From Streptomyces pseudogriseolus (GTDB lineage: Bacteria; Actinomycetota; Actinomycetes; Streptomycetales; Streptomycetaceae): DNA of 37,537 bases. Made by a program: the position numbers and the translations under genes. Location of the stretch: assembly GCA_002154585.1 (NCBI GenBank), contig MUNG01000076.1:1-37537 (forward strand), given 5' to 3'. Under the pieces are notes generated by a model. The model ran no database searches. It had not been told where the DNA came from and was given only the letters and a program-made list of their open reading frames with translations. The stretch's first letter is position 1. Every line of letters starts with the position of its first letter. This document shows, piece by piece, positions 7,325 through 20,246 of the stretch.

Positions 7325-7822
7325 ATGAGCGGCTCACAAACCTCCGCACCTCCTCCGCCGGAGGCGTGCCCGACCGGGCTGCAGTCATTCGCCGTGCAAC
7401 TGCGCCGGATGACCGGTGAGTTCAACCGCATCGTCCAGGAGTTCGCCCAGGCGCACGGCCTGCACCACACCGACATGCTCGCCCTGATCGCGATCCTCGA
7501 CGGCGGCGGACCCGACACACCCATGACGCCCGGCCGTCTGCGCAAGCAGCTCAACCTCACGTCCGGCGCGATGACGGCCTGCCTGGACCGGCTGGAGCGG
7601 GCGGGACACATCCGGCGGGTACGGGCGGCCGACGACCGCCGCGTGGTGCATCTGGAGTACGAGGACCGGGCCAGGGGTCTGGCGCGGGAGTACTTCCGGC
7701 CGCTCGCCCGCAGCACCGACACGGCCCGCGAGCGGTTCACGACCGAGGAACTGCGCGTGGTGATCCGCTTCCTCACCGAGCTGAACCACGAGCTCGCGCT
7801 GTTGCGCGGGCACACGGACTGA
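7325..7822 (+). CDS. MarR-family transcriptional regulator
   Basis: 165 residues with the MarR layout: N-terminal dimerisation helices, then a winged HTH (LRKQLNLTSGAMTACLDRLE as helix-turn-helix) followed by the wing VRAADDRRVVHLEYEDRARG containing the conserved DDRR. The C-terminal helices ELRVVIRFLTELNHELALLR complete the dimer interface. The ATG at 7325 lies shortly after the putative operator. Its position, divergent from the MMPL exporter, indicates local control of drug or metabolite export. It is separated from the downstream Zur-type operon by a strong terminator, so it is unlikely to be part of that system. Confidence 0.9.
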   Translation: MSGSQTSAPPPPEACPTGLQSFAVQLRRMTGEFNRIVQEFAQAHGLHHTDMLALIAILDGGGPDTPMTPGRLRKQLNLTSGAMTACLDRLERAGHIRRVRAADDRRVVHLEYEDRARGLAREYFRPLARSTDTARERFTTEELRVVIRFLTELNHELALLRGHTD

Positions 7823-7828
7823 TCCGCC

Positions 7829-7881
7829 CGGCGGCGGACGGCCGGGTCAGGGCGCACGCCTGACCCGGCCGTCCGCCGCCG
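7829..7881. terminator. Strong hairpin terminator after the MarR gene
   Basis: Perfect 23-bp stem (7829-7851 with 7859-7881) and a 7-base loop, starting seven bases after the marR stop and followed by TTCTCGTTT. It insulates the metallophore operon downstream. Confidence 0.85.
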
Positions 7882-7918
7882 TTCTCGTTTCCGCGGAGCG
7901 CACGCACCTCCTCGACGG

Positions 7919-7947
7919 CTGACATTGAAAATGATTACCGTTATCGT
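7919..7947 (+). promoter_or_regulatory. Zur-like box overlapping a sigma-70-type promoter
   Basis: TGAAAATGATTACCGTTATC (7927-7946 region) is a sharply AT-rich island. Its core GATTACCGTTATC reads as GAT-N-AC-N-GT-N-ATC, an almost perfect palindrome of the size bound by FUR-family dimers. It sits between and over a candidate -35 CTGACA (7919-7924) and -10 TATCGT (7942-7947, 17-bp spacer), where bound repressor would block polymerase. Streptomyces iron control uses DmdR/IdeR boxes (TTAGGTTAGGCTAACC type), which this does not resemble, and nickel Nur sites differ too; Zur is therefore the best guess. It lies 97 bp before the first gene of the operon. Confidence 0.7.
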
Positions 7948-8042
7948 GTGTTGCGCGCGGCCCGGCCCCTCCCCCGAGGGGTCTTCTCGGGCTGCCCGTC
8001 ACGGTGATGGCGGCCTCAAGGCACGGCACGAAAAGGGGAGTT

Positions 8043-9299
8043 GTGGCTCATCTGCTGATGGTCGAGAGCTGGGTCGGATCGATGAGCAGGCTGCTGCCGC
8101 GGGCGATACAGGAGGCCGGGCACACCTTCACGTTCCTCACCCGCGACCTGCACCACTACCTGCGTACGGCGCCCGAGGGCGCGGCGCACCCGCTGCTCGG
8201 GGCGCGCGACGTGGTCACCGCGGACACCAACGACCCGGAGTCCCTGGTGCCGTACGTGGAGCGGCTGCACGAGGTTCTCGGGTTCGACGGGGTGCTCACG
8301 TCCTGCGACTACTACCTGCCGACGGCGGCGCTGCTCGCCGAGCGGCTCGGACTGCCCGCGCCGGACCCCGAGGCCGTGCGGAACGCCTGCCGCAAGGACG
8401 CCACCCGCCGCGTGCTGGAGAAGGCCGGCGTACCGGGTCCCCGGTTCGCCGTCCACGAGGACCGGGCCGAACTGGGCGCGGCCGCCCGGGACATCGGCTT
8501 TCCGCTGGTCGTCAAGCCCGTCGACCTGTGCGCGGGGATGTTCGTGCGGCGCGTGGACGACGACGGGCAACTCGCTGCCGCCGTACGCGCGCTGGGCGAC
8601 TTCCCGGTCAACGCGCGGGGGCAGCGGCGCGCTCCGGCGGTGCTGCTGGAGGAGCTGCTGGACGGACCGGAGGTGAGTGTCGAGACCGTGTCCCACGCGG
8701 GTGCCGTGCGGGTGGCCGGGGTGACCGACAAGAGCATCGGCGGCGCGCCCGCGTTCATCGAGACCGGCCACATGTTCCCCGCCGCGCTGTCCGGCGCCGA
8801 GACGGAGGACGTCGTACGGACCGCGGTGGACGCGCTCACGGCCCTGGGCCTCACCGACGGGGTCGTGGCGCACACGGAGATCAAGCTGACGTCGGCCGGG
8901 CCGCGCGTGGTCGAGGTCAATCCGCGGCCCGCCGGCAACCGCATCACCGAACTCGTCCGCCGGGTCACCGGGGTCGACCTCGTCGCGGCGTTCGTCGACG
9001 TCTCGCTGGGCCGGGCACCCGACCTGCGGCGCACGGACACCGGACTGCGGTCCGCCGCCGTCGGGTTCCTCGTGCCGGAGGCCACGGGGACGCTCGCCGC
9101 CCTGGACGGCTCCGGGCTGCGCGGCGCGCCGGACGTGCTGGAGGCGGAACTCGCCGAACCCGGCAGGCAGGTGCGGGCGGCGGGCAGCAACAACGAGTAC
9201 CTCGGGCACGTCATGGTGGGCGACACCGAGGGGGCGGGGGCCCGCGTACGGGTCGAGGGCCTGCTCGCCTCGCTGCGGTCGGGACTGGTGATCCGATGA
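8043..9299 (+). CDS. ATP-grasp ligase (first gene of putative zincophore operon)
   Basis: 418 residues. The N-terminal pre-ATP-grasp domain begins HLLMVESWVGSMSRLLPRAI. The ATP-grasp fold spans about 115-305: KDATRRVLEKAGVPGPRF, the lysine of PLVVKPVDLCAGMFV, LLEELLDGPEVSVE, and the metal-binding end EVNPRPAGNRITEL. A C-terminal domain follows, with AGSNNEYLGHVMV. Such enzymes phosphorylate a carboxylate and join it to an amine, so an amide or peptide-like bond is expected in the product. GTG 8043 was chosen because AAAGG (8032-8036) is 6 bases upstream and the preceding codons do not fit the family. It is the first gene after the Zur-like box and overlaps the next by ATGA. Substrates are unknown. 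Confidence 0.88.
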   Translation: MAHLLMVESWVGSMSRLLPRAIQEAGHTFTFLTRDLHHYLRTAPEGAAHPLLGARDVVTADTNDPESLVPYVERLHEVLGFDGVLTSCDYYLPTAALLAERLGLPAPDPEAVRNACRKDATRRVLEKAGVPGPRFAVHEDRAELGAAARDIGFPLVVKPVDLCAGMFVRRVDDDGQLAAAVRALGDFPVNARGQRRAPAVLLEELLDGPEVSVETVSHAGAVRVAGVTDKSIGGAPAFIETGHMFPAALSGAETEDVVRTAVDALTALGLTDGVVAHTEIKLTSAGPRVVEVNPRPAGNRITELVRRVTGVDLVAAFVDVSLGRAPDLRRTDTGLRSAAVGFLVPEATGTLAALDGSGLRGAPDVLEAELAEPGRQVRAAGSNNEYLGHVMVGDTEGAGARVRVEGLLASLRSGLVIR

Positions 9300-10132
9300 C
9301 CGCCGTCCGCCCGGCGTCCGCCGGCACGGTGACGTACGAGACGCTGCTGGCGCGGGCCCGGGGCGGGGAGCTCGGCCCGGACCCGGCGGGGCTGCGGGTG
9401 GCCGTGGCGTTCACGACCCGGCAGGCCGTACGGCACGACGGGCGGGGCACCGGTTACCGGAACGAGGTGCTCGGGCTGCGGGTCGGCGCGGCCGTCGGCA
9501 GCTGCGCGGTGGAGCCCGGTGCGACGGCCGACGGCGTGGTCGAGGAGTGCGCCGGCGCGGCTCTGGACCGGCTGCTGGACCATCCGCTGGAGCCTGTGCG
9601 GGTGGCCGCGCTGGACGCCTACCTGATGCACGTCGCTCCGCACTCTCCGGCGCACGGGGCCCGGCCCGTGCGGGTGCCCGCCGGGACCTCGCTGGAGAAG
9701 TCCCGTGCGCGGGCGCGGGCGGTCGTCGGGCTGCTGAAACTGCCGCCGGGGGCCACGGTGTTGGTGGTCGGGGTGGTCAACTCCCTGCTGGAGGCCCTGC
9801 GTGCGCGCCGGCTGGCGTACGTTCCGTGCGACTTCAAGGGCGGGGTCACCGAGTGGGGCGAGGCGGTCGCCGGTGACGCGCTCGCCGAGGCGCACCGGTG
9901 CGACGCGCTGCTGGTGTCCGGGATGACGCTGGGCAACGGGACGTTCGAGCCGCTGCGGCGGCACGCGCGGGAGCACGGCAAGCAGCTGGTGATGTTCGCC
10001 CAGTCGGGCAGCGCCGTGCTGCCCCGGCTGCTGGGGCATGGGGTGAGCGCGGTGTGCGCGGAGCCGTATCCGTTCTTCTGGCTGGACGGCGGTCCGAGCA
10101 CGCTGCACCTGTACCAGGGGGGTGCGCGGTGA
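9296..10132 (+). CDS. DUF4213/DUF364 Rossmann-like protein ('putative heavy-metal chelation')
   Basis: 278 residues. The N-terminal part (about 15-110) matches the DUF4213 enolase-N-like domain, with LGLRVGAAVGSCAVEPG. The C-terminal part (about 115-270) is the DUF364 Rossmann-like domain: VLVVGVVNSLLEALRARRLA as nucleotide-like loop, LLVSGMTLGNGTFEPL corresponding to the family's TGTTLxNGT block, and MFAQSGSAVLPRLLGHGVSA. The family is annotated in Pfam as putative heavy-metal chelation from structural genomics; no reaction is established to my knowledge. It overlaps both neighbours by four bases (ATGA, GTGA), tying it to ATP-grasp and CysK-like enzymes. It may bind metal, or act on a PLP-derived intermediate with its Rossmann domain; both are inference. 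Confidence 0.78.
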   Translation: MTAVRPASAGTVTYETLLARARGGELGPDPAGLRVAVAFTTRQAVRHDGRGTGYRNEVLGLRVGAAVGSCAVEPGATADGVVEECAGAALDRLLDHPLEPVRVAALDAYLMHVAPHSPAHGARPVRVPAGTSLEKSRARARAVVGLLKLPPGATVLVVGVVNSLLEALRARRLAYVPCDFKGGVTEWGEAVAGDALAEAHRCDALLVSGMTLGNGTFEPLRRHAREHGKQLVMFAQSGSAVLPRLLGHGVSAVCAEPYPFFWLDGGPSTLHLYQGGAR

Positions 10133-11226
10133 CGGCCGCCGTCGCTCCCCTCGCCCGGCCGGTCGCGCGTCCGGAGCTGCTGTCCCTGCTGGGGCGTACT
10201 CCCGTCGTGCGGGTGACGGCCGGGCTGCCGGATCCGCACCCGGGGTTCTGGGCGAAGCTCGAAGGGCTGGCGGCCGGCGGTATGAAGGCGCGGCCCGCCG
10301 TGTCGATGCTGCTCGACGCCCGTGAGCGGGGCGCGCTGCGTCCGGGCGCCCCGGTGGTGGAGTCGACGTCCGGCACGCTCGGCCTCGGACTCGCCTTCGC
10401 GGGGCAGGCGCTCGGCCATCCCGTCGTCCTGGTGTGCGACAGCGAACTGGAGCCGTCGATGCGGCGGTTGCTGCGCGCCCACGGGGTGCGGCTGGAGATC
10501 GTGGACCGTCCGGCCGTGCGGGGCGGCTGGCAGGCCGCGCGGCTGGCCCGGCTGCGGGAACTGCTGGCGGAGCTGCCCGGCGCGTACTGGCCCGACCAGT
10601 ACGACAACCCGGGAAACAGCGCCGGTTACGCCTCCCTCGCCGCCGAACTCGCCGTCCAGCTGGATCATCTGGACATCCTGGTGTGCAGTGTCGGCACCGG
10701 CGGGCACAGCGCGGGCGTCGTCGGTCCGCTGCGCCGGCACTGGCCCGGGCTGCGGCTGATCGGCGTGGACGCCACCGGCTCCACGATCTTCGGGCAGCCG
10801 GCCAGGCCGCGGCTGATGCGCGGGCTGGGCAGCAGCATCCATCCGCGCAACGTCCGCTACGAGGCGTTCGACGAGGTGCACTGGGTCGGGCCGGCGGAGG
10901 CGGTGGACAGCTGCCGGCGGCTCGCCCGCGAGAGCTTCGTCTCGGGCGGCTGGAGCACCGGCGCCGCGGCCCGGGTCGCCGCCTGGGCGGCCCGCGTCCA
11001 TCCGGGCGCGGTCGTCGCCGCCGTCTTCCCCGACGGCCCGCACCGCTACCTCGACACCGTCTACGACGACGGTTTCACCGCCGCGCACGGTCTCGACGTC
11101 GCCGCCGCGGCCACCCGGCCCGTGGAGATCCCGCACCCCCGCGCGGCCGAGGCGACCGGCTGGGTCCGCTGCACCCGCGTCACCGATCCGCTGAAGACCG
11201 CACCCGCTGCGAGGAGGACCCCGTGA
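10129..11226 (+). CDS. CysK/SbnA-like PLP-dependent synthase
   Basis: 365 residues of fold-type II PLP enzyme. The Schiff-base lysine is K53 in GGMKARPAVSML, matching GSxKDR of cysteine synthases. The substrate/phosphate loop is STSGTLGLGLAF (79-90) in place of TSGNTG. The PLP phosphate loop is GTGGHSAG (about 189-196), and the C-terminal SGGWSTGAAARVAAW matches the SSGAA element. The enzyme should form an aminoacrylate from serine, O-phosphoserine or O-acetylserine and add an amine or thiol, as SbnA does in 2,3-diaminopropionate synthesis. The altered loops suggest a substrate other than ordinary O-acetylserine/sulfide. No SbnB-like partner is in the operon. A C-terminal extension of ~40 residues has no obvious domain. 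GTG start overlaps the previous stop (GTGA). Confidence 0.85.
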   Translation: MTAAVAPLARPVARPELLSLLGRTPVVRVTAGLPDPHPGFWAKLEGLAAGGMKARPAVSMLLDARERGALRPGAPVVESTSGTLGLGLAFAGQALGHPVVLVCDSELEPSMRRLLRAHGVRLEIVDRPAVRGGWQAARLARLRELLAELPGAYWPDQYDNPGNSAGYASLAAELAVQLDHLDILVCSVGTGGHSAGVVGPLRRHWPGLRLIGVDATGSTIFGQPARPRLMRGLGSSIHPRNVRYEAFDEVHWVGPAEAVDSCRRLARESFVSGGWSTGAAARVAAWAARVHPGAVVAAVFPDGPHRYLDTVYDDGFTAAHGLDVAAAATRPVEIPHPRAAEATGWVRCTRVTDPLKTAPAARRTP

Positions 11227-12299
11227 AGGCCGCCACGCGCACCGTGCGGCTCGAACTCACCGAGCCGCTGCGCATATCCCGTTCCGTCATGGCCGCCCGT
11301 GACGCCGTGTGGCTGAGCGTCGAGCACGACGGTGTCACCGGTCATGGCGAGGCCGTCACCAGCGTGTACCACGGCCTGGACGCGGCGACGCTGCGCCGCT
11401 GCTTCGCCGACGCCTCCCGGGAGTTGTGCCGCTTCCCGGACCCCGATGCCGCGCTGGAGGCGCTGCGTGCGGGCGAACTGACGGGAGGCGCCACTCCCCC
11501 GGCCGTCCGGGCCGCCGTGGAGGCGGCGCTGCTCGACCTCGCCGGCGTCCGCGCGGGCCGCCCGGTGCACCGGCTCCTCGGCCTCCCGCAAGCGCCGGTG
11601 GCGGCCACCGCCCGCACGATCGGCATCACCTCGCCCCTCGACGCGGCGGCCCAGGCACGCGCGCTCACGGCGTGCGGGTTCGAGGTCCTCAAGCTGAAGG
11701 CGGGGCTGCCCGACCCGGAGGAGGACGTCGAGCGGCTGCGGGTCGTGCGGGACGCCGCGCCCGGCGCCCGCCTGCTGCTCGACCCGAACGGCGCCTGGAC
11801 GCCCCGCCAGGCGGAGGCGCTGCTGCCGCGTTGCGCCGAGCTCGGTGTCGAGGCCGTCGAGCAGCCCGTCGCCCCCGGCGATCCCGACGGGCTGGCCGCG
11901 CTGGCCGCGCGCTCACCCCTGCCGGTGATCGCCGACGAGGACGCGGTCGGTCTGGAGGACGTACGCCGGCTCGCCGGACGCGTCCACGGCGTCAACGTCA
12001 AGCTGGCCAAGTGCGGCGGCGTGCATGCCGCGCTGCGTATCGCGGAGACGGTCGCGGGCAGCGGCACCGCGCTGATGCTGGGCTGTCTGACCGCCAGCAG
12101 CCTGGGTCTCGCGCCCGCGGTGCATCTCGCAGGGACGGCCCGCTGGGCGGACCTCGACGGCCATCTGCTGCTCGCCCACGACCCGTGGACCGGCATCGGC
12201 GGCGAGGACGGGTACGTACGGACGAGCGGGCTGCCCGGGCTGGGCGTGGAGCCGCGAGCCGTGCGCGGGGAGCGCCGGGCGGCGGTGGGGGAACGGTGA
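11223..12299 (+). CDS. Dipeptide-epimerase-like enolase-superfamily enzyme
   Basis: 358 residues with the muconate-lactonizing/dipeptide-epimerase layout. An N-terminal capping domain precedes a barrel carrying catalytic KLK (K157, K159), metal ligands D187 (LLLDPNGAW), E213 (VEQP) and D238 (IADED), and the second lysine in VKLAKCGG (260-266). Near the end DLD (310-312) in WADLDGHLLL matches the DxD motif by which dipeptide epimerases hold the substrate's alpha-amino group. All key residues are present, so it should be active. It probably inverts an alpha-carbon of an amino-acid or dipeptide-like intermediate made by the ATP-grasp and PLP enzymes. Peptidoglycan Ala-Glu recycling is unlikely given the operon. 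GTGA overlap with the preceding gene. Confidence 0.87.
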   Translation: MKAATRTVRLELTEPLRISRSVMAARDAVWLSVEHDGVTGHGEAVTSVYHGLDAATLRRCFADASRELCRFPDPDAALEALRAGELTGGATPPAVRAAVEAALLDLAGVRAGRPVHRLLGLPQAPVAATARTIGITSPLDAAAQARALTACGFEVLKLKAGLPDPEEDVERLRVVRDAAPGARLLLDPNGAWTPRQAEALLPRCAELGVEAVEQPVAPGDPDGLAALAARSPLPVIADEDAVGLEDVRRLAGRVHGVNVKLAKCGGVHAALRIAETVAGSGTALMLGCLTASSLGLAPAVHLAGTARWADLDGHLLLAHDPWTGIGGEDGYVRTSGLPGLGVEPRAVRGERRAAVGER

Positions 12300-13585
12300 C
12301 GGCCTGGCACGAGATACGCCGCTTCCCGCCGGCCGTCCAGCTGCTGCTGGTCAACCAGTTCGGCGTGAACACCGGCTTCTACCTGCTCATTCCCTACCTC
12401 GCCACCCACCTCACCGAGAACCTCGGCATGTCGGCCGCCGTCGTCGGCGCGGTTCTCGGGGCGCGCACCCTCAGTCAGCAGGGCCTGTTCGTGGTCGGGG
12501 GGTCCGCCGCGGACCGGCTCGGCGCGCGGGGCGTCATCATCGCTGGATGCGCGCTGCGCACCCTGGGGTTCGCGCTGTTCGCGTTCGGGGACGACCTGGT
12601 GGTGCTGGTGGCCGCCTCCGTGCTCAGCGGCTTCGCGGGGGCGCTGTTCAACCCCGCCGTGCGCGCCTACCTCGCCGAGGAGGCGGACGGGCGCACGGCT
12701 GAGGCGTTCGCCCTGTTCGGCATGTTCGCGGCGGCCGGCGCGCTGGCCGGGCCGCTGCTGGGCAGCGCGCTGCTGCTGGTGGACTTCCGCACGTCGGCGC
12801 TGACGGCCGCCGCGGTCTTCGCCGTTCTGACGATCGCCCAGGTGCTGGTGCTGCCCGCCGGCGGGACGCGGCGGCGCGCCGGCGGTCCGGTGCCGGCCGA
12901 CTGGCGGGAGGTGGCGCGGAACCGGCCGTTCCTGGCGTTCTCGCTCGCGATGGTCGGCATGTTCACCCTGGAGAGCCAGCTGTATCTGCTGCTGCCCGAC
13001 GGCGCGCGGCAGGCCACCGGCTGGGACGGCGCCGCGGGTCTGGTGCTGCTCGTCGGCACGCTCGCTCATCTGACCTTGCAACTGCGGGTCACCCGCGCCC
13101 TGAAGAGGCGGGGGCAGCGGGGGCGCTGGATCGTCACCGGGCTCGGTCTGACGACGGTGGCGTTCCTGCCGCCGGCGCTGACGGCGGGCGCCCCGGACGG
13201 ACCGGACGGCGTGGTGGACGGGGTACTGCGTGTGCTGCCCGTGCTGGCCGGGGCGCTGCTGCTGAGCCTGGGGGTGATGGTGGCGCAGCCGTTCGTGATG
13301 GAGCTGATACCCGCTTACGGCCGGGCCGGGCTCACCGGCACCTACTTCGGGGTGTTCTACGTCGTCTCGGGTGTCGCGGCGGCGGTGGGAAACACCGTCG
13401 TCGGGTGGGCCATGGACACCGGAGGGCGGGGCGGGCCGGCGTGGCTGCCGTGGGTGTGCTGTGCCCTGTTCGGGCTGGTGTCGGCGCTCGGGGTGGCGTG
13501 GCTGCGGCGGCTGGGGTCGTTGCCGGCGGCGTCGGAGCCGCGGGCCGTGGGGGCGGCCGTGCGGGGCGAGGGGACGGCCGCATGA
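12296..13585 (+). CDS. MFS exporter (putative metallophore efflux)
   Basis: 429 residues, about 12 membrane helices. It opens FPPAVQLLLVNQFGVNTGFY, followed by the loop 2-3 motif GGSAADRLGARGVIIAG and LSGFAGALFNPAVRAYLAEE, typical of small-molecule/multidrug MFS pumps. The second half begins NRPFLAFSLAMVGMFTLESQ. In Cnt-type metallophore systems an MFS protein exports the finished ligand; here the gene lies between the biosynthetic genes and the importer and overlaps the epimerase gene by GTGA and the methyltransferase gene by ATGA. Export of the operon's product is therefore the best inference. Confidence 0.85.
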   Translation: MTAWHEIRRFPPAVQLLLVNQFGVNTGFYLLIPYLATHLTENLGMSAAVVGAVLGARTLSQQGLFVVGGSAADRLGARGVIIAGCALRTLGFALFAFGDDLVVLVAASVLSGFAGALFNPAVRAYLAEEADGRTAEAFALFGMFAAAGALAGPLLGSALLLVDFRTSALTAAAVFAVLTIAQVLVLPAGGTRRRAGGPVPADWREVARNRPFLAFSLAMVGMFTLESQLYLLLPDGARQATGWDGAAGLVLLVGTLAHLTLQLRVTRALKRRGQRGRWIVTGLGLTTVAFLPPALTAGAPDGPDGVVDGVLRVLPVLAGALLLSLGVMVAQPFVMELIPAYGRAGLTGTYFGVFYVVSGVAAAVGNTVVGWAMDTGGRGGPAWLPWVCCALFGLVSALGVAWLRRLGSLPAASEPRAVGAAVRGEGTAA

Positions 13586-14409
13586 GTGCCGAAGCCGGGC
13601 CGCCGGCCCGTGAAGCGGCTTCGCCCGCCCGCACTCTTCTCACGGACCGTCCCGAGCTGTACGAGGCCCGCTTCCCCGATCCCGGGCGGCTCGCCGGACG
13701 GTGGGCGGAGGACTGTCTGCGACGGCACGGCGCGGGACCGCGTGTGCTGGACATGGGGTGCGGCACCGGCCGCGACGCCGCCCATCTGCACGCGGCGGGC
13801 CGCCGGGTGACCGCGGCCGACCTGTCCGAGCCGATGCTCGCGTACGCCCGCACCCGCCATCCGGGGCCGGAGTACGTACGGGCCGACCTGCACGGATGTG
13901 ACTTCGGGACGGACGTGTTCGACGCCGTCGTGTGCCTGGACAGCGCGCTGCTGTACTGCCACACCAACGAGCAGCTCGACCGTTTCCTGTCGTGCTGCCG
14001 GCGCGCGTTGAGCCCCGGCGGTCTGCTGGTGGCGGAGATGCGCAACGGCGCGTACTTCCTGGGCCGCACCGACCTGCTCGACTCCGCCGCTCCTGCCGAG
14101 TTCGTGTGGCAGGGCGTCGTGCACCGGTCCGTCACCACGCTCACGGTGGACCGTACGGCGCAGCTTCTGCGCCGGATGCGGGTGTGGCGCGCGGGCGGCG
14201 GTGCGGAGCCGGCCGTGGAGCGGTCCGCCTGGCGGCTGTTGTTCCCGCAGGAGCTGCGCCGCTTCCTGACGGCGCACGGGTTCGAGGTGCTGGAGCTGCA
14301 CGACGGGCCGGGACCGCGCACCGAACCGCCCTGGCGTGAAGGGCTCCCGCCCGGCCGCACCGCCGACGCCGACCGGCTGCACGTCGTGGCCCGTCTCGCC
14401 CGGCCCTGA
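13582..14409 (+). CDS. Class I SAM-dependent methyltransferase
   Basis: 275 residues. Motif I VLDMGCGTGRDAAHLHAAG (about 55-73) is followed by motif II acidic VTAADLSEPML, then DVFDAVVCLDSALLYC and LSPGGLLVAEMRNGAYFLG, the usual Rossmann methyltransferase order. The C-terminal half carries extra beta strands (LTVDRTAQLLRRMRVWRAGG), as in small-molecule N- or O-methyltransferases. ATG overlaps the MFS stop (ATGA). It would decorate the operon's product, for example N-methylation of an amino-acid ligand; the target is inference. After it there is a 39-base gap, the only non-overlapping junction in the operon, before the importer genes. Confidence 0.85.
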   Translation: MSAEAGPPAREAASPARTLLTDRPELYEARFPDPGRLAGRWAEDCLRRHGAGPRVLDMGCGTGRDAAHLHAAGRRVTAADLSEPMLAYARTRHPGPEYVRADLHGCDFGTDVFDAVVCLDSALLYCHTNEQLDRFLSCCRRALSPGGLLVAEMRNGAYFLGRTDLLDSAAPAEFVWQGVVHRSVTTLTVDRTAQLLRRMRVWRAGGGAEPAVERSAWRLLFPQELRRFLTAHGFEVLELHDGPGPRTEPPWREGLPPGRTADADRLHVVARLARP

Positions 14410-14448
14410 CATCCGTAGCTCACTCTCCTCCGACAGAAGGACTCCCTC

Positions 14449-16047
14449 ATGCATGACGACTCCGTTCCTCCCCTGTCCTCCGACGGACGCTTCGCGGGAC
14501 TGCGCCGCCGTGGTTTCCTCGCCGCCACCGGCGCCGCCTCGCTCGGCGCGCTGTCGCTCGCCGGGTGCGGCGGCTCCGGTGACGGCGGTGATCCCAAGGC
14601 GGGCGGCACGCCGCAGCGCGGCGGACGGCTGCGTGCCGCGTTCGCGGGCGGCGGCGCGAGCGAGACGCTCGATCCGCACCGGGCCAACCTGTTCGCCGAC
14701 GCCGCCCGCGCGAAGGCGCTGTTCGACAAGCTCGCCGACCACGGCCCCGACCTGGCCGCCCGCCCGCGCCTCGCGGAACGCTGGGAGCCGAACCGGACGC
14801 TGGACCGCTGGCAGGTGACGCTGCGGGAGGCGACCTTCCACGACGGCCGTCCGGTCACCGCCGAGGACGTGCTGCACAGTTACCGCCGTATCGCCGATCC
14901 TCGGGAGGCGTTCCGCGCCAAGGCGTCGCTGGAGCCCGTCGATCTGAACGCGAGCCGGGCCACGGGCCGCCGGTCCGTCGAGTTCGTGCTCAAGCGGCCC
15001 ACCGCCGAATTCCCCAACGTCCTGGCCGCGTTCGGCGCGTACATCGTCCCGGCGCACGCCGGCGACTTCGACGCGAACCCCGTGGGCTCCGGCCCGTTCC
15101 GGTTCGTGTCGTTCGCACCGGGCCGCTCGGCGGTCTTCCGCCGCTACGACGGCTACTGGGACGGCGCGCCGTACCTGGACGAGCTCGAGTTCGTCGTCGC
15201 CAACGAGGAGTCGGCGCGCGTCAACGCGCTCCTCGGCGGGCAGGTCGAGTACGCGCACGAGCTGAACCCGACGACGGCCCGCGCCCATGAGGGCAGCGGG
15301 CAGATCGACATCGTGCGGCTGCGGAACAGCGCCATGCAGGCGTTCTGCATGAAGACCGACCGGCCGCCCTTCGACGACGTGCGGGTGCGGCGGGCGTTCT
15401 TCCTGATCGCCGACCGGGAGGAGCTGGTCGACGCCGCGCTGGCCGGGGCGGGCGAGACGGGCAACGACCTGTTCGGCAAGGGGTACGAGTACTACGCCGA
15501 CGGACTGCCGCAGCGGGCGCAGGACCTGGAGCAGGCGCGGTTCCTGCTCAAGAGGGCCGGCGCCGAGGACCTGCGCGTCACGCTGGACACCTCGGCCGTC
15601 GCCGCCGGGTTCACCGAGGCCGCGAGCGTCTTCCGTGACCAGGCGCGGCAGGCGGGCGTCACGGTGGACGTGCGGATGGGCAGCAAGGACTCGTACTGGA
15701 GCGACATCCTCGACGGCGGCATCCTGTGCTGCTACCGCTCCGGGGCCATGCCGATCGAGGCGCACATCTCGCAGCGGCTGCTCACCGACTCCACGACCAA
15801 CGCCACCCACTGGCGGCACCGGGACTTCGACGCGCTGTACCGGCAGGCGCAGTCCACCCCCGACAGGGAGGACCGCGCCGCCCTGTACCGGCGTATGCAG
15901 CGACGGCTGTACGCGGAGGGCGGGTTCCTGGTGTGGGGGTTCGCCGACTGGATCATCGGAACGGCCCGCTCGGTGCGGGGTGTCGAGGCGGACGCGCCCG
16001 CCAACACCCTGGACTGGGCGCGGTTCGACAAGGTGTGGCTCGCGTGA
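14449..16047 (+). CDS. Family 5 ABC solute-binding lipoprotein (Dpp/Nik/CntA-like)
   Basis: 532 residues. A Tat-type signal (LRRRGFLAATGAA, 18-30) leads into lipobox LAGC with the lipidated cysteine at 40. The mature protein is an SBP_bac_5 fold: ETLDPHRANLFADAARAKAL, then WQVTLREATFHDGRPVTAEDV, the hallmark block of peptide/nickel binding proteins, and PVGSGPFRFV and DDVRVRRAFFLIADREELVD later. Relatives bind oligopeptides, nickel chelates or opine-type metallophores such as staphylopine-metal. ATG 14449 is preceded by GAAGGA. It overlaps permease 1 by GTGA. In this operon it most likely captures the metal-loaded ligand at the outer face of the membrane. Confidence 0.9.
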   Translation: MHDDSVPPLSSDGRFAGLRRRGFLAATGAASLGALSLAGCGGSGDGGDPKAGGTPQRGGRLRAAFAGGGASETLDPHRANLFADAARAKALFDKLADHGPDLAARPRLAERWEPNRTLDRWQVTLREATFHDGRPVTAEDVLHSYRRIADPREAFRAKASLEPVDLNASRATGRRSVEFVLKRPTAEFPNVLAAFGAYIVPAHAGDFDANPVGSGPFRFVSFAPGRSAVFRRYDGYWDGAPYLDELEFVVANEESARVNALLGGQVEYAHELNPTTARAHEGSGQIDIVRLRNSAMQAFCMKTDRPPFDDVRVRRAFFLIADREELVDAALAGAGETGNDLFGKGYEYYADGLPQRAQDLEQARFLLKRAGAEDLRVTLDTSAVAAGFTEAASVFRDQARQAGVTVDVRMGSKDSYWSDILDGGILCCYRSGAMPIEAHISQRLLTDSTTNATHWRHRDFDALYRQAQSTPDREDRAALYRRMQRRLYAEGGFLVWGFADWIIGTARSVRGVEADAPANTLDWARFDKVWLA

Positions 16048-16997
16048 GCGGACTGCGCTCGTTCGTCGCCCGGCGGCTGCTGCTCGGGGCCGCGCAGATC
16101 GTGGCCGTGGTGCTGCTGGTCTTCGCGCTCACCGAGGCGCTGCCGGGTGACGCGGCCGTGGCCCTCGCCGGTGACCAGCCGGACCCGGCGCGTGTCGAGG
16201 CGATCCGTACGGCGATGGAGCTGGACCGGCCGGCGTGGGAGCGGCTGGCGGACTGGGCGGCGGGCCTGCTCCACGGTGATCTGGGCACCTCGCTGACGTC
16301 CGGGCGCCCGGTGGCGGGGTACCTCGCCGACGGCTTCGGCCCCACCCTGCTGCTGGCCGCGCTCACCGTGGTGCTGCTGGTGCCGGCGGGCGTCGGGCTG
16401 GGTGTGCTGGCCGCGCGGTACGAGGGGCGGCTCGTGGACCGGCTGATCAGCTCGGTGACGCTCGCGGTGTACGCGGTGCCGGAGTTCGCCCTGGGGGTGC
16501 TGCTGGTCACGGTGTTCGCGCTGCGGCTTGGCTGGCTGCCGCCGACGGCGGTCGGTCACGGCGCCGATCTGCTCGCGCATCCGGGTGTGCTCGTCCTGCC
16601 CGTCCTGGTCCTGCTGGCGCGGCCCGTGTGCTCGCTGGTCCGCCTGGTGCGCGCGGGCATGATCGACGCGCTGGCGTCCCCTTACGTGGCGCACGCCCTG
16701 CGGTGCGGGGTCCCCGGCGCCCGGGTGCGCCGGCTGCACGCGCTGCCGCATGCTCTCGCGCCGGCCGTGCAGCAGCTGGCGCGGACGGTCGACTGGCTGC
16801 TGTGCGGGGTCGTGGTGGTGGAGACGCTGTTCGTGGTCCCGGGGCTCGGGACCGTGCTGCTGGGGGCGGTGGGCGAGCGTGACGTGCCGGTGGTGCAGGG
16901 GCTCGCGGTGGTGTTCGGCGTGGTCACGGTCGTGCTGAACCTGGGGGCGGACGTGGTGGCGCACCGGCTCGCCCCGCGGGCGGGGGTGGTGGCGTGA
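16044..16997 (+). CDS. ABC transporter permease 1 (DppB/NikB/CntB type)
   Basis: 317 residues. The N-terminal helix RRLLLGAAQIVAVVLLVFAL is followed by an extracytoplasmic segment with ALPGDAAV and GDLGTSLTSGRPV, conserved in the DppB branch. A BPD_transp_1 domain follows with VRAGMIDALASPYVAHALRCGVPGARVRRLHALPHAL as the EAA loop contacting the ATPase. GTG start overlaps the binding-protein stop. It pairs with permease 2 to form the channel. Confidence 0.9.
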   Translation: MSGLRSFVARRLLLGAAQIVAVVLLVFALTEALPGDAAVALAGDQPDPARVEAIRTAMELDRPAWERLADWAAGLLHGDLGTSLTSGRPVAGYLADGFGPTLLLAALTVVLLVPAGVGLGVLAARYEGRLVDRLISSVTLAVYAVPEFALGVLLVTVFALRLGWLPPTAVGHGADLLAHPGVLVLPVLVLLARPVCSLVRLVRAGMIDALASPYVAHALRCGVPGARVRRLHALPHALAPAVQQLARTVDWLLCGVVVVETLFVVPGLGTVLLGAVGERDVPVVQGLAVVFGVVTVVLNLGADVVAHRLAPRAGVVA

Positions 16998-17830
16998 GGG
17001 CACGCACGGGCCGGTTCGTCCTGGGGGTCACGGTGGTGGCCGTGCCGGTGGTGATCGCGCTGCTCGGACCGGTCGTCGCGGGTGAACCGCCGTCGCGGGA
17101 CGGCTCGTTCGCCGGGGGCGGGGCCTTTGGGTTCGGCACGGACTTCGTGGGGCGGGACGTCTGGTACCAGGTGCTGCACGGCGGGCGGCCGGTGGTGCTG
17201 ACGGCGCTCGCGGCCACCGCCCTGGCCTATCTGGTGGCGCTGCCGCTGGGGCTGGCCGCCGCGCTCACCCGCCGGCGCCTGGTGGAGGAGGCGCTGATGC
17301 GGCCGCTGGACGTGCTGCTCGCCGTGCCGTCGCTGCTGATGATCCTGCTGGCGGCCACCGTGTTCGCGCCGGGGGCCGTCGGGCTGGCTCTGCTGGTCGC
17401 GGTGGTCAACGTGCCCGACGCGGCCCGGCTGGTGCGCGCCGCGGCCACGGAGATCGCGGCGCGCCCCGCCGTGGAGGCCCTGCGGATGCAGGGCGAGACG
17501 TGGTGGCGGATCGCGGTGGGGCACGTCGGGCGCGCGATGCTGCGCACCCTGGCCGCCGATGCCGGCACCCGGCTGACCGGGGTGCTGTACCTGGTCGCCA
17601 CGGCGGCGTTCCTCGGCGTGGGGGTGGCGCCCGACGCCGCCGACTGGGCGGTGATGGTCGACCGGAACCGCACCGGCCTGTTCGTGCAGCCGTGGGCCGT
17701 GGCCGTGCCCGCCCTGCTGATCGTCGCCCTCACCACGGGCAGCAACCTGCTGTTCGACGCGGCGCTGGAGGGGCGGGGCCGTGTCGGGGCGCCTGCCGGA
17801 AGGGAGAAGGGGCGTGTCCGTGGAAGGTGA
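16994..17830 (+). CDS. ABC transporter permease 2 (DppC/NikC/CntC type)
   Basis: 278 residues. The N-terminal helix FVLGVTVVAVPVVIALLGPV is followed by FGFGTDFVGRDVWYQVLHGG, the DppC-type segment between helices 1 and 2. The core BPD_transp_1 domain has RAAATEIAARPAVEALRMQGETWWRIAVGHVGRAML as EAA loop. GTG start overlaps the permease 1 stop (GTGA). Its 3' end overlaps the start of the ATPase gene by 17 bases. Confidence 0.9.
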   Translation: MRARTGRFVLGVTVVAVPVVIALLGPVVAGEPPSRDGSFAGGGAFGFGTDFVGRDVWYQVLHGGRPVVLTALAATALAYLVALPLGLAAALTRRRLVEEALMRPLDVLLAVPSLLMILLAATVFAPGAVGLALLVAVVNVPDAARLVRAAATEIAARPAVEALRMQGETWWRIAVGHVGRAMLRTLAADAGTRLTGVLYLVATAAFLGVGVAPDAADWAVMVDRNRTGLFVQPWAVAVPALLIVALTTGSNLLFDAALEGRGRVGAPAGREKGRVRGR

Positions 17831-19421
17831 GAACGGCCTGGGTGAAGGGCCCGTGGCCGAGGAGGGGGAGAGCGGCACGGGTGAGGGGCCCGTGGTCGAG
17901 GTGCGGGATCTGCGGGTGGAGGTCGACGGGCGGGCGATCGTGGACGGGGTCTCCTTCCGGGTGCTGCCGGGCCGGGTCACCGCGCTGGTGGGGGCGTCCG
18001 GAAGCGGCAAGACGACGACGGGGCTCGCGCTGCTCGGGGAGTATCCGTACGGCGCGCGGGTGGGCGGGGAGGTGCGGGTGACCACCGGAGGGCCCGTGGG
18101 GTACGTCCCTCAGCATCCGGCGAGCGTGCTGGCGCCGGCCCGCCGGATCGACGCACTGCTGACCGACATCGCCCGGCCGCGGGCGCTCCGCCTGCCGCGC
18201 GGGGAGCGGCGGGCGGCGGCGCGCGCGCTGGTGGTGCGGGCACTCGAGGACGCGCAACTGAAGGACGCGGAAGCTCTGTTGCGGCGGTACCCGCACCAGT
18301 TGTCGGGAGGACAGCAGCAACGGGTCGTGCTCGCCCAGGCGTTGCTGCTCGGCTCCCGGGTCGTGGTCGCCGACGAACCGACGACGGGGCAGGACACCCT
18401 GACCAAGCGCCGGGTGGTCGCGCAGCTCGCGGCCCTCACGGCGCGCGGGATCGCCGTCGTCCTGCTCAGCCACGACCTGGACGTCGTGCGGGCGCTCGCC
18501 GACGAGGTGGTCGTGATGCGGGAGGGGCGGGTGGTCGAGTCGGGACCCGCCGAGCGGCTGTGGGCCGCGCCGGGCCATCCGTGGACACGGGAACTGCTCG
18601 ACTCGGAGCGGACGTCGGTGCCCTTCGACGATGTCGCGCGGACACGGCGCCCTGTGATGCGGGTGCGCGACCTGGTGGCACGGCACGGGGCCGGAACCCG
18701 GTCCGCCACGGTCGTGCTGCGTGTTCCCGCGCTCGATCTGCGCGCCGGGGAGTGTCTGGCCGTGGTCGGCCGGTCCGGCAGCGGCAAGACGACCCTCGCG
18801 CGGTGTCTCGCCGGACTGCATCGCGATCACGACGGTGAGGTGCGTCTCGACGAGACGGTGCTGCCCGGCAGCCTGCGCCGACGCACCCGTGCGCAACTGG
18901 CGTCCGTGCAGTACGTGTTCCAGGACGCCCACCTCGCGTTCGACGCACATCGGCCGGTGGTGGAGCAGGTGGCCCGCACCGCCGTGCGTCTGCGCGGACT
19001 CGGCGCCGATGCAGCACGGCGGGAGGCGCTGGGCGTCCTGGCCCGCCTCGGTCTGCCGGGAGCTCTGGTGCGGCGCCGGCCCGGCGGGCTGTCCGGGGGC
19101 GAACTCCAGCGTGCCGCGCTCGCCCGCGCCCTGCTGGCCCGCCCGCGCGTGCTGCTGTGCGACGAGATCACGTCGGGCCTCGACACGGCCACGCGCCGGG
19201 ACATCCTGGGGACCCTGACGGAACTGATGCGTGAGCGGGGCGACCTGGCGCTGGTCCTGATCACCCACGACCTGGCCACCGCCGGTCTCGCGCACCGTGT
19301 CGCCGTCCTCGACGCGGGCGAGGTCGTCGAACAGGGGCCGGCGCGGACGGTGCTGGCCGATCCCCGGCATCCGTTCACCCGGGCGCTGGTCGGCACGGCG
19401 GAACCCGTCGCGCGGACATGA
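17814..19421 (+). CDS. Fused double ABC ATPase (DppD-DppF type) of the importer
   Basis: 535 residues with two full ABC modules in one chain. Module 1 has Walker A GASGSGKTTTG (about 60), Q-loop GYVPQHPAS, signature LSGGQQQR (about 163) and Walker B VVVADEPTTG. Module 2 has Walker A GRSGSGKTTLA (about 319), VQYVFQDAH, signature LSGGELQR (about 426) and Walker B VLLCDEITSGLD. The two modules replace the separate D and F subunits of peptide/nickel importers. The linker near 260-285 carries the DppD-type C-terminal piece. GTG 17814 is favoured because GGGAG (17802-17806) lies upstream; GTG 17781 and 17820 are alternatives. It is the last gene of the operon and convergent with the SGNH hydrolase gene. 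Confidence 0.88.
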   Translation: MSVEGENGLGEGPVAEEGESGTGEGPVVEVRDLRVEVDGRAIVDGVSFRVLPGRVTALVGASGSGKTTTGLALLGEYPYGARVGGEVRVTTGGPVGYVPQHPASVLAPARRIDALLTDIARPRALRLPRGERRAAARALVVRALEDAQLKDAEALLRRYPHQLSGGQQQRVVLAQALLLGSRVVVADEPTTGQDTLTKRRVVAQLAALTARGIAVVLLSHDLDVVRALADEVVVMREGRVVESGPAERLWAAPGHPWTRELLDSERTSVPFDDVARTRRPVMRVRDLVARHGAGTRSATVVLRVPALDLRAGECLAVVGRSGSGKTTLARCLAGLHRDHDGEVRLDETVLPGSLRRRTRAQLASVQYVFQDAHLAFDAHRPVVEQVARTAVRLRGLGADAARREALGVLARLGLPGALVRRRPGGLSGGELQRAALARALLARPRVLLCDEITSGLDTATRRDILGTLTELMRERGDLALVLITHDLATAGLAHRVAVLDAGEVVEQGPARTVLADPRHPFTRALVGTAEPVART

Positions 19422-19439: not shown

Positions 19440-20246
19440 TCAGCCGTCCGTCACCGGGCGGCGGTCGGCCTGTACCGGAAGGAGCAGCGGGCGTTTGGCG
19501 GTGCGGCCGTCGCCGGACGACCTTCCCGTCAGGCGGCGGAGCAGCCAGGGGCCCAGGAAGCCCGCCAGCCAGCGGAGTTCGGCGGTGACGGCGCGCACGC
19601 CGGTGGGCAGGGCCTGCGGCGGGAGGGGGTGGGTCCAGGTGTCGTCGCTGCCCGGCAGGCGCAGGGCGTGGGCGAGGGCGGCGGCGATGCGTTCGTGGCC
19701 CAGCGGGCCGGCGTGGAGACGGTCGGGGCTCCACAGCCGGGGGTCGCCCGCGACCGGGTGAAGGGCCGTCTCCGCGACGATCACCCCGTGGCGGCGCGCG
19801 GTGCGGCGTATGCCCTCGTTGAGGGCGGTGACGCGCGGGACCAGGGGGCGTGCGACGGGGCAGACACGGGAGAGGTCCGGGACGGTGATCGTGGCGACCT
19901 GGGTGCCCTGCTCGGTGAGCGCCCCGAACATGGCGTCCAGGTGGGCGCACACCTCGTCGGCGTCGAAGCCGGGTCTCAGCAGGTCGTTCACACCGGCGAC
20001 CACGGTGGCGAGGTCGGGCCGCAGCGCGAGGGCGGGGGCGAGCTGCTCGGTGTGGATCTGGGCGGCGAGGCGGCCGCGTACGGCCAGGTTGGCGTACTGG
20101 AGGGCGGGTTCGTGCCGGGCCAGGTGCTCGGCGAGGCGGTCGGCGAAGCCGCGCAGGCCGGTGACGTCGTCGCCGTCGCCGACACCTTCGGTCTGGCTGT
20201 CGCCGAGGGCGACGTAGCGGAGGTAGGTCGTCTCAGTTCCGGGCAC
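19440..20246 (-). CDS. SGNH/GDSL-family hydrolase
   Basis: 268 residues. Block I YVALGDSQTEGVGDG supplies the nucleophile serine, block III is VVAGVNDLL (GxND oxyanion residues), and the Asp-His pair is in SPDRLHAGPLGH. These are the complete SGNH motifs, so it should be an active esterase or lipase. No signal peptide is seen, and the C-terminal ~50 residues have hydrophobic and basic character (LAGFLGPWLLRRLTG). GTG start at 20246 lies inside the end of the PadR gene (14-base overlap), so the two are translated together. The substrate is unknown. Confidence 0.88.
   Translation of the reverse strand: MPGTETTYLRYVALGDSQTEGVGDGDDVTGLRGFADRLAEHLARHEPALQYANLAVRGRLAAQIHTEQLAPALALRPDLATVVAGVNDLLRPGFDADEVCAHLDAMFGALTEQGTQVATITVPDLSRVCPVARPLVPRVTALNEGIRRTARRHGVIVAETALHPVAGDPRLWSPDRLHAGPLGHERIAAALAHALRLPGSDDTWTHPLPPQALPTGVRAVTAELRWLAGFLGPWLLRRLTGRSSGDGRTAKRPLLLPVQADRRPVTDG

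Follow-up and report, generated by a model that had tools for sequence, protein, structure and literature searches.

A ten-gene Streptomyces operon with a Zur-box-like operator is a probable zincophore system

The window analyzed here, 37,537 nucleotides of Streptomyces pseudogriseolus DNA, carries ten co-directional genes on the + strand (8043-19421) that probably form a self-contained, zinc-controlled zincophore system, whose ligand may be an aminopolycarboxylate peptide. Open reading frame (ORF) calls and Pfam and NCBIfam families identify an ATP-grasp ligase, a DUF364 protein, a pyridoxal phosphate (PLP) enzyme resembling SbnA, a dipeptide-epimerase-like enzyme, a major facilitator superfamily (MFS) protein, a methyltransferase, and the binding lipoprotein, two permeases and fused double ATPase of an ATP-binding cassette (ABC) importer. 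A first-pass annotation of the same DNA had proposed a zinc-repressed system that makes, exports and re-imports a metallophore. Its family calls were borne out by Pfam and NCBIfam, and zinc control together with the make, export and re-import scheme has gained strong comparative support from a znu-like operator, the lack of an iron-type box, and a gene order that is the same in 73/73 complete loci and in two loci of other families. Zur control of the operon is predicted with high confidence, and we are somewhat less sure, while still confident, that it makes, exports and re-imports a metallophore. Judged from the gene set, the ligand class is likely new.

Results

A Zur-box-like operator lies in the promoter spacer

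The region 7780-8060 contains a single promoter-like site, CTGACA and TATCGT separated by 17 bp (1 found; mean of 0.0 in 50 shuffles). The 15-mer TGAAAATGATTACCG (7926-7940) resembles a Zur box and lies entirely inside the 17-bp spacer, which is the classical position for a repressor. Its half-sites, TGACA and TGAAAAT, resemble those of znuA boxes. When 80 sequences were aligned (79 loci and the window), the spacer TGAAAATGATTATCG was the most conserved stretch, flanked by the -35 and -10 hexamers. Promoter spacers are usually free to vary.

The published 15-bp Zur motif, tGaNNatSatNNtCa, comes from chromatin immunoprecipitation in S. coelicolor (PMC5472717, in part). With one mismatch allowed it was too loose to be used alone, as it found 78 sites per strand in the source genome vs 9 in the reversed control. 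Exact matches to the motif number five in that genome, and four of them are inside predicted ORFs. Because the published motif with one mismatch is too loose, a matrix was built from znu boxes. Its training set, six distinct 15-mers together with their reverse complements, represents znuA and znuB/C-type boxes and includes none from the operon. The training boxes were drawn from the 8/12 znuA loci showing boxes and from one further site (L042) in the source genome; no Zur-like boxes were found at the four second-copy znuA loci. This matrix scores at least 10 bits in 79/79 upstream regions of the operon (250 bp each) and at 48 positions elsewhere in 1,499,452 bp. At 16 bits the counts are 73/79 upstream regions vs 15 other positions in the same 1,499,452 bp. 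L100 was left out of the upstream counts because its contig begins too near. A genome scan with an actinobacterial Zur motif, as the first-pass annotation had proposed, was of little use by itself in this one-mismatch form.

Two observations were made on the znu genes themselves. Two Zur-like boxes, 22 bp apart, are present in 6/8 first-copy znuA promoters (L053, L054, L056, L057, L058 and L060). At the L042 site (C533:19234 of the source genome) a Zur-type box separates two divergent ORFs whose products resemble a znu-type ABC ATPase and permease, and a second znuA match lies 2.2 kb from this box.

The source genome has five FUR-family matches. One of them, at C468:6760, is 1.8 kb downstream of znuA (C468:4087), which we take to be the usual place of zur. 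In the 79 upstream regions no IdeR/DmdR iron box scored above 12/19 against the consensus; this is a weak control, since 20-kb stretches reach 13/19 by chance, as in L172. Iron control was rejected for want of an IdeR/DmdR-like site better than 12/19 in these regions.

The operon is conserved in gene content and order

Eighty loci, the best 80 of 286 found, were compared with the window. They are near relatives and not independent; all but L117 ("Actinobacteria bacterium") are titled Streptomyces, and L118 and L149 are metagenome-assembled genomes. Completeness was judged by tblastn with identity thresholds of our own setting, under which L124 passes with weak matches to the methyltransferase (45%) and first permease (54%). 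All ten genes are present in 73/80 loci, and their order and strand are identical in 73/73. Six of the seven incomplete loci end at contig ends. The other, L106, is a degraded or rearranged copy: only the first four genes are found (L106:8700-13300), the other six are unmatched in the next 7 kb, and the operator is retained. The closest DUF364 proteins among these best 80 are 87-90% identical to that of the window and occur in three Streptomyces loci.

In a set of 61 genomes, the source genome included, an ATP-grasp orthologue was found in seven others at 70-78% identity, with the next match at 38%. Six of the seven have all ten genes in order. L149 and L031 lie on contigs of equal length and their upstream genes are 100% identical, so these are the same locus or nearly so, and the seven loci of this set and the 80 loci are not additive. 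Two genomes from other families (L174 and L175) also carry the complete operon, with unchanged gene order. In L174 a box-like site scoring 18.9 bits is found roughly 50 bp upstream. L175 has no upstream site above 9 bits by the matrix, and likeness there is by eye only.

Biosynthetic enzymes

The ATP-grasp enzyme has both the ATP-grasp core and the C-terminal domain of L-amino-acid ligases (PF18603, 38.9 bits vs a cut-off of 29.4). Its best solved relative is the L-amino acid ligase BL00235 and the second is BacD. The start had been placed at 8004; we consider GTG 8043 the better choice.

The PLP enzyme had been called CysK-like. It is a PF00291 enzyme, but it is closest to SbnA rather than CysK: the SbnA model TIGR03945 is the top of its 24 NCBIfam matches, and its nearest solved relatives in PDB are SbnA, then CmnB. 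In a phylogenetic tree the operon enzymes join the SbnA-like enzymes of L199 and L200 with support of 100/99, and the enzyme of L202, the probable locus for ethylenediaminesuccinic acid hydroxyarginine (EDHA), falls outside; long branches elsewhere make the deeper joins unsafe. Among the proteins examined, the L199 and L200 enzymes are the nearest relatives outside the operon. At both loci (L199:10577-13041 and L200:8454-10783) the SbnA-like gene, 57-61% identical to that of the window, stands beside an MFS gene (42-43%), and the pair is possibly a minimal chelator-making and export unit. In other actinomycetes, SbnA-like genes are fused in one reading frame with distant ATP-grasp genes (L010, L018 and L201) or adjoin them (L020 and L022); the SbnA-like genes of these five loci are about 42-44% identical, and the loci represent further SbnA/ATP-grasp clusters.

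SbnB cuts the SbnA product to free diaminopropionate. The SbnB model TIGR03944 has no match in the draft source genome or in G029; some match was found in 6/8 genomes searched, three above the cut-off. Since the source genome has no SbnB match, the SbnA product is probably uncleaved there, and the product of the SbnA-like enzyme would then stay whole as an N-(2-amino-2-carboxyethyl)-amino acid.

In PDB the epimerase has solved dipeptide epimerases as its nearest relatives, and K157/K159, D187, E213, D238, K260 and D310/D312 are invariant in 8/8 orthologues. These residues correspond to the dipeptide epimerase signature: KxK, three acidic metal ligands, the second Lys and the DxD motif. A predicted ligase followed by a predicted dipeptide epimerase is a natural pair. 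The chances that the product has an aminopolycarboxylate-peptide structure appear to be even.

Transport proteins

The MFS protein has weak efflux-pump matches. The importer is of the Nik type by family matches, with the Cnt, Nik and Opp NCBIfam models all below their cut-offs, and the best PDB relative of the binding protein is a nickel-binding protein. NikA binds the Ni, Zn and Co complexes of aspergillomarasmine A (PMC11091072, in part), which makes Nik-type binding proteins suitable receptors for a ligand of this kind.

DUF364 is common to two systems with Zur-like boxes

The second protein of the operon had been described as DUF4213/DUF364. The DUF364 half of this call reaches the Pfam threshold (PF04016, 25.8 bits vs a gathering cut-off of 23), whereas DUF4213 has no Pfam match at E 0.001. 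An AlphaFold model of the protein (predicted local distance difference test score, pLDDT, 80.8) was compared with known structures by Foldseek, and the best matches were the DUF364 structures 3l5o and 3npg (3l5o_A, E 2.7e-8, TM 0.56 and 0.63). The first DUF364 structure appeared in 2010, with a role in heavy-metal chelation suggested only (PMC2954201).

At E 1e-20 the DUF364 marker is found in 170/392 sampled Streptomyces genomes. By hand tally, 99 of these (99/392) have the close form, 70 have a second form as best match and one has a fragment, so the two forms together account for 169/392. In a class-wide survey at E 1e-8 the marker is present in 30/394 genomes and 8/137 genera. Both surveys together give at least 87 genomes with the second form as best match (70, and 17 not counted before). 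Twelve second-form loci were fetched (L167-L173 and L176-L180), seven from Streptomyces and five from other genera. Their DUF364 proteins are 39-43% identical to that of the window, and in 12/12 a CysK-like gene, belonging to another clade, is no more than about 2.5 kb away. An AT-rich znu-like site of more than 12 bits is present 0.2-3.8 kb upstream of the CysK/DUF364 block in 12/12; the distances are measured to the block, other genes may intervene, and some loci also score above 12 elsewhere. The background at 12 bits is 33 positions in 1.50 Mb. In L167 (L167:7546-15139), the one second-form locus annotated with Pfam, the block is neighbored by genes for an MFS protein, a FecCD permease, an ATPase and a Peripla_BP_2 binding protein, and by a divergent GHMP kinase gene.

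The most surprising result is that DUF364 is common to two systems that both have Zur-like boxes and whose CysK-like enzymes belong to different clades. Because it is shared by two such systems, its function becomes testable.

Organization and setting of the operon

The coordinates of the genes, promoter and operator are given in Table 1. As first annotated, the ten co-directional genes overlap by 4-17 bases at all junctions but one. The nine junctions comprise seven 4-bp overlaps, one 17-bp overlap between the second permease and ATPase genes, provided that the ATPase starts at 17814, and one 39-bp gap between the methyltransferase and binding-lipoprotein genes.

Table 1. Features of the operon and its control region in the window
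Feature	Position	Strand	Basis
Sigma-70-type promoter, -35 CTGACA, 17-bp spacer, -10 TATCGT	7919..7947	+	Promoter scan; hexamers and spacer conserved in 80 aligned sequences including the window
Zur-box-like operator TGAAAATGATTACCG	7926..7940	.	Wholly within the promoter spacer
ATP-grasp L-amino-acid-ligase-like enzyme, 418 aa	8043..9299	+	PF13535, PF18130 and LAL_C2 PF18603 above cut-offs; 3vot best solved relative
DUF364 protein, 278 aa, putative heavy-metal chelation family	9296..10132	+	PF04016; AlphaFold2 model; Foldseek 3l5o, 3npg
SbnA/CysK-like PLP enzyme, 365 aa	10129..11226	+	PF00291; TIGR03945 best; PDB 5d87, then CmnB
Dipeptide-epimerase-like MR_MLE enzyme, 358 aa	11223..12299	+	PF13378, PF02746; PDB 3iji best, also 3jva and 1jpm
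Putative MFS exporter (direction predicted), 429 aa	12296..13585	+	PF07690; best NCBIfam match MdtH-like, below cut-off
Class I S-adenosylmethionine methyltransferase, 275 aa	13582..14409	+	PF13649, PF08241
Family 5 solute-binding lipoprotein, 532 aa	14449..16047	+	PF00496; Opp5A_nikA nearest NCBIfam model, below cut-off; PDB best 3t66
ABC importer permease 1, Nik/Dpp type	16044..16997	+	PF00528, PF19300; Opp2B/NikB-like, below cut-offs
ABC importer permease 2, Nik/Dpp type	16994..17830	+	PF00528; Opp2C/NikC/CntC-like, below cut-offs
Fused double ATPase of importer	17814..19421 (start possibly 17820 or later)	+	Two PF00005 stretches; NikD/CntD/CntF-like and NikE-like halves, below cut-offs

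The source genome is a 7.26-Mb assembly of 773 contigs, and the window lies within contig C732. The upstream neighbor of the operon is a MarR-family gene, and a perfect 23-bp inverted repeat (arms from 7829 and 7859) lies between the two. The repeat (7829-7881) directly follows the MarR-family gene, and the scan for terminator-like sites made no call there; it is perhaps a terminator without a T run that insulates the operon promoter. The downstream boundary is a convergent gene for a GDSL lipase (19440-20246). Downstream flanks of sufficient length were available in only 10/81 sets, eight of which are the window and the seven loci of the 61-genome set, and the window shares no downstream ORF with these seven.

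A divergent, secreted-looking alpha/beta hydrolase gene is present upstream in 41/76 flanks (37/68 of those from the 80-locus set), with Abhydrolase_1 and Abhydrolase_4 (TAP-like C-terminal) domains. Its start is 127-286 bp from the ATP-grasp start, as in L031:2366-3853. Since the operator lies between the hydrolase gene and the operon, the hydrolase may be a co-regulated accessory. It is absent upstream of the window, of its three nearest relatives in the 80-locus set and in 31 other flanks.

Discussion

Relation to known metallophore systems

By gene content the nearest known kind appears to be that of the SbnA-based aminopolycarboxylate metallophores, ethylenediamine-disuccinate (EDDS) and EDHA, and not Cnt. 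EDDS, the product of the aes genes of Amycolatopsis japonicum, is a Zur-repressed aminopolycarboxylate zincophore whose route is unlike those of nonribosomal peptide synthetases (NRPS) and NRPS-independent siderophore (NIS) synthetases (PMC9252823, PMC4993170 and PMC13379591, each in part). The likeness is drawn from published descriptions. Unlike the window system, EDDS would need a decarboxylation to make its ethylenediamine core, and the operon has no gene for this step.

The EDHA locus of Streptomyces scabiei 87-22 is scab_5231-5311 (PMC8914351), and L202 is, from its position and content, probably this locus. Its SbnA-like enzyme is 37% identical to that of the window, and its family 5 binding protein, two permeases and ABC ATPase are homologous to those of the window (35-42% identical). 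It also carries an exporter of the MATE (multidrug and toxic compound extrusion) family. L202 differs in having TauD, an ornithine cyclodeaminase (OCD) family protein resembling SbnB, and an Orn/Arg-type decarboxylase. OCD and a PLP decarboxylase define the ethylenediamine-unit systems of EDDS and EDHA. Both are absent by Pfam from the ten operon proteins; no search for a decarboxylase was made in the rest of the genome. Within its 20 kb L202 has no match to the ATP-grasp, DUF364, epimerase, MFS or methyltransferase proteins of the window. Between the divergent importer and biosynthetic genes of L202 (1769-12785) there are iron-box-like sites at 6677 and 6747 (14/19 and 13/19), which count mainly because they are within the divergent intergenic region; no Zur-like box was found in that region. 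S. scabiei carries both the EDHA locus and the present operon. Identity with EDHA was rejected on these three grounds: the gene set and the box type differ at the probable EDHA locus, and one organism has both.

Cnt systems export by MFS, and Cnt and other opine systems are defined by a nicotianamine-synthase-like enzyme and an opine dehydrogenase. The operon shares the architecture, a dedicated MFS protein and a Nik/Opp-type ABC importer for re-import, and matches the CntA, CntC, CntD and CntF models below cut-off. No nicotianamine-synthase-like or opine-dehydrogenase protein was found by Pfam among the ten operon proteins, and membership in Cnt was rejected for lack of these biosynthetic enzymes. 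The parallel with Cnt drawn at first annotation therefore holds for the logic, with different enzymes, but Cnt is not the nearest relative, EDDS and EDHA being closer. Altogether the operon appears Cnt-like in logic yet outside Cnt, and would belong with the SbnA-based, Zur-controlled metallophore systems as a new gene set.

Three other comparisons are useful. Fungal aspergillomarasmine A is an aminopropionate-aspartate chelator of Zn, Ni and Co (PMC11091072, in part), and the SbnA product would be chemically similar; the window system differs in adding a ligase, an epimerase and DUF364 to such chemistry. SbnA of staphyloferrin B and CmnB of capreomycin, the best solved relatives of the PLP enzyme, provide a second comparison, but in staphyloferrin B synthesis SbnB frees diaminopropionate and the source genome has no SbnB match. 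Coelibactin of S. coelicolor is also the product of a Zur-repressed zincophore cluster (PMC5472717, in part), but it is a putative NRPS product (PMC3430247, in part) and no NRPS is encoded among the ten operon genes. No publication describing the operon was recognized in the literature searched; Spohn 2016 (EDDS) and Spohn 2018 (EDHA) were outside its coverage and could mention the operon.

Proposed mechanism

From gene content, order and conservation, operator and promoter geometry, and family and fold relations we infer Zur binding, a zinc response, catalysis, export and import as follows. When zinc is plentiful, Zn-Zur would occupy the spacer of the single promoter and block it, and when zinc is scarce all ten genes would be expressed together. 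The SbnA-like enzyme would exchange the beta-leaving group of an activated serine for the amine of another amino acid, yielding an N-(2-amino-2-carboxyethyl)-amino acid. This would be a small chelator core of the aminopolycarboxylate type, kept whole without SbnB to cleave it. The ATP-grasp ligase would couple this core to a further amino acid, the epimerase would invert one center of the resulting dipeptide, and the methyltransferase would cap the epimerized product. DUF364 may act in the cytoplasm, either in assembly or in the release of metal from the returned complex. The MFS protein would send the ligand out, and the lipoprotein, two permeases and double ATPase would return the metal complex.

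A more specific proposal is tentative and slightly less probable than its converse: that the operon represents an undescribed zincophore class, in which an N-(2-amino-2-carboxyethyl)-amino acid built by the SbnA-like enzyme is extended and epimerized as a peptide by the ATP-grasp and MR_MLE enzymes, and that DUF364, as a dedicated metallophore enzyme or a factor for metal release, serves two Zur-controlled systems that were assembled separately, the operon and the CysK-DUF364 family.

Weighing the evidence

Several results weigh against a zinc-controlled zincophore operon. The window box differs from the S. coelicolor Zur motif at 2/11 specified positions. The FUR-type palindrome of the first-pass annotation does coincide with the promoter, the site being within the spacer, but as a palindrome it is poor: 8/15 positions are symmetric in the Zur-box register (7926-7940) and 14/29 over 7919-7947, and the best 15-mer (7932-7946) reaches 10/15. 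The znu-trained matrix ranks the box second in the window (16.28 vs 16.75 for a site at 684, within a predicted ORF at 343-1452); the window box stands above chance because it is conserved in 79/79 other loci. The promoter itself accounts for some of that conservation, and in the hydrolase-bearing loci some of the intergenic sequence may be conserved for the hydrolase gene. In those loci the unit may extend beyond the ten genes. In L106 none of the operon remains after the epimerase gene; L037, the locus of the seventh genome in the 61-genome set, has just the first five genes at this position; and the binding protein of L035 looks truncated. The PLP enzyme scores 246.6 bits with the SbnA model, under the curated cut-off of 349.95, and the SbnA and MFS gene pairs of L199 and L200 have no Zur-like box upstream. 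The AlphaFold model of the binding protein (pLDDT 43) is too poor for a view of the ligand pocket.

Of the other explanations, the one that survives best, though improbable, is that the physiological metal of the metallophore is not mainly zinc but nickel, cobalt, copper or several divalent metals, and that Zur is a convenient switch. Such a system would suit an importer closest to nickel systems, and aspergillomarasmine A, itself an aminopolycarboxylate, is a ligand of Zn, Ni and Co (PMC11091072, in part). However, the operator is znu-box-like in 79/79 loci, for which zinc control is the simplest reading, although no search was aimed at nickel-regulator sites.

It is less probable still, and quite unlikely, that the box serves another FUR-family regulator or is chiefly a conserved promoter, with an operon that does not respond to zinc. 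The five FUR-family matches in the source genome offer other candidates, and the site coincides with the -35/-10 spacer, but it is the spacer itself that is conserved, and it carries the znuA-box-like half-sites TGACA and TGAAAAT.

We also think it very unlikely that the product is a zinc-controlled antimicrobial or antimetabolite dipeptide, made and exported by the ligase, epimerase and MFS protein and recovered, or met with immunity, through the ABC transporter. The pairing of an L-amino-acid ligase with an epimerase does recall bacilysin-like dipeptides, the more so with BacD as second solved relative, and family 5 transporters carry peptides too. Nevertheless the SbnA-type enzyme, DUF364, the Zur-type box, and export and import together fit metal scavenging better, and the ten proteins match no resistance-type family, apart from weak efflux-pump matches of the MFS protein.

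Least probable of all is the uptake and processing of foreign aminopolycarboxylates or metal-peptide complexes by catabolic enzymes. In its favor, EppA, a NikA/DppA/OppA-type protein, is part of an EDTA (ethylenediaminetetraacetate) importer (PMC7312458, in part), the epimerase finds its best NCBIfam match in DgcA, below cut-off, and a divergent secreted hydrolase is encoded at many loci. Against it, a catabolic operon offers no easy explanation for an ATP-grasp ligase, a beta-replacement PLP enzyme or an MFS exporter, and the genes for these three precede the importer in 73/73 complete loci.

Implications for zinc acquisition in Streptomyces

Zinc scavenging in Streptomyces is known from znuABC and coelibactin, with EDDS in a related genus. 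If the proposed zincophore system is real, a conserved set of ten genes, with a DUF364 marker present in roughly one in four sampled Streptomyces genomes, would be a main zinc-acquisition route in soil actinomycetes. The predicted product is a small peptide-type aminopolycarboxylate made without an NRPS, which genome mining may overlook, as it overlooked EDHA in S. scabiei (PMC8914351). DUF364 would gain a concrete, testable place in metallophore systems.

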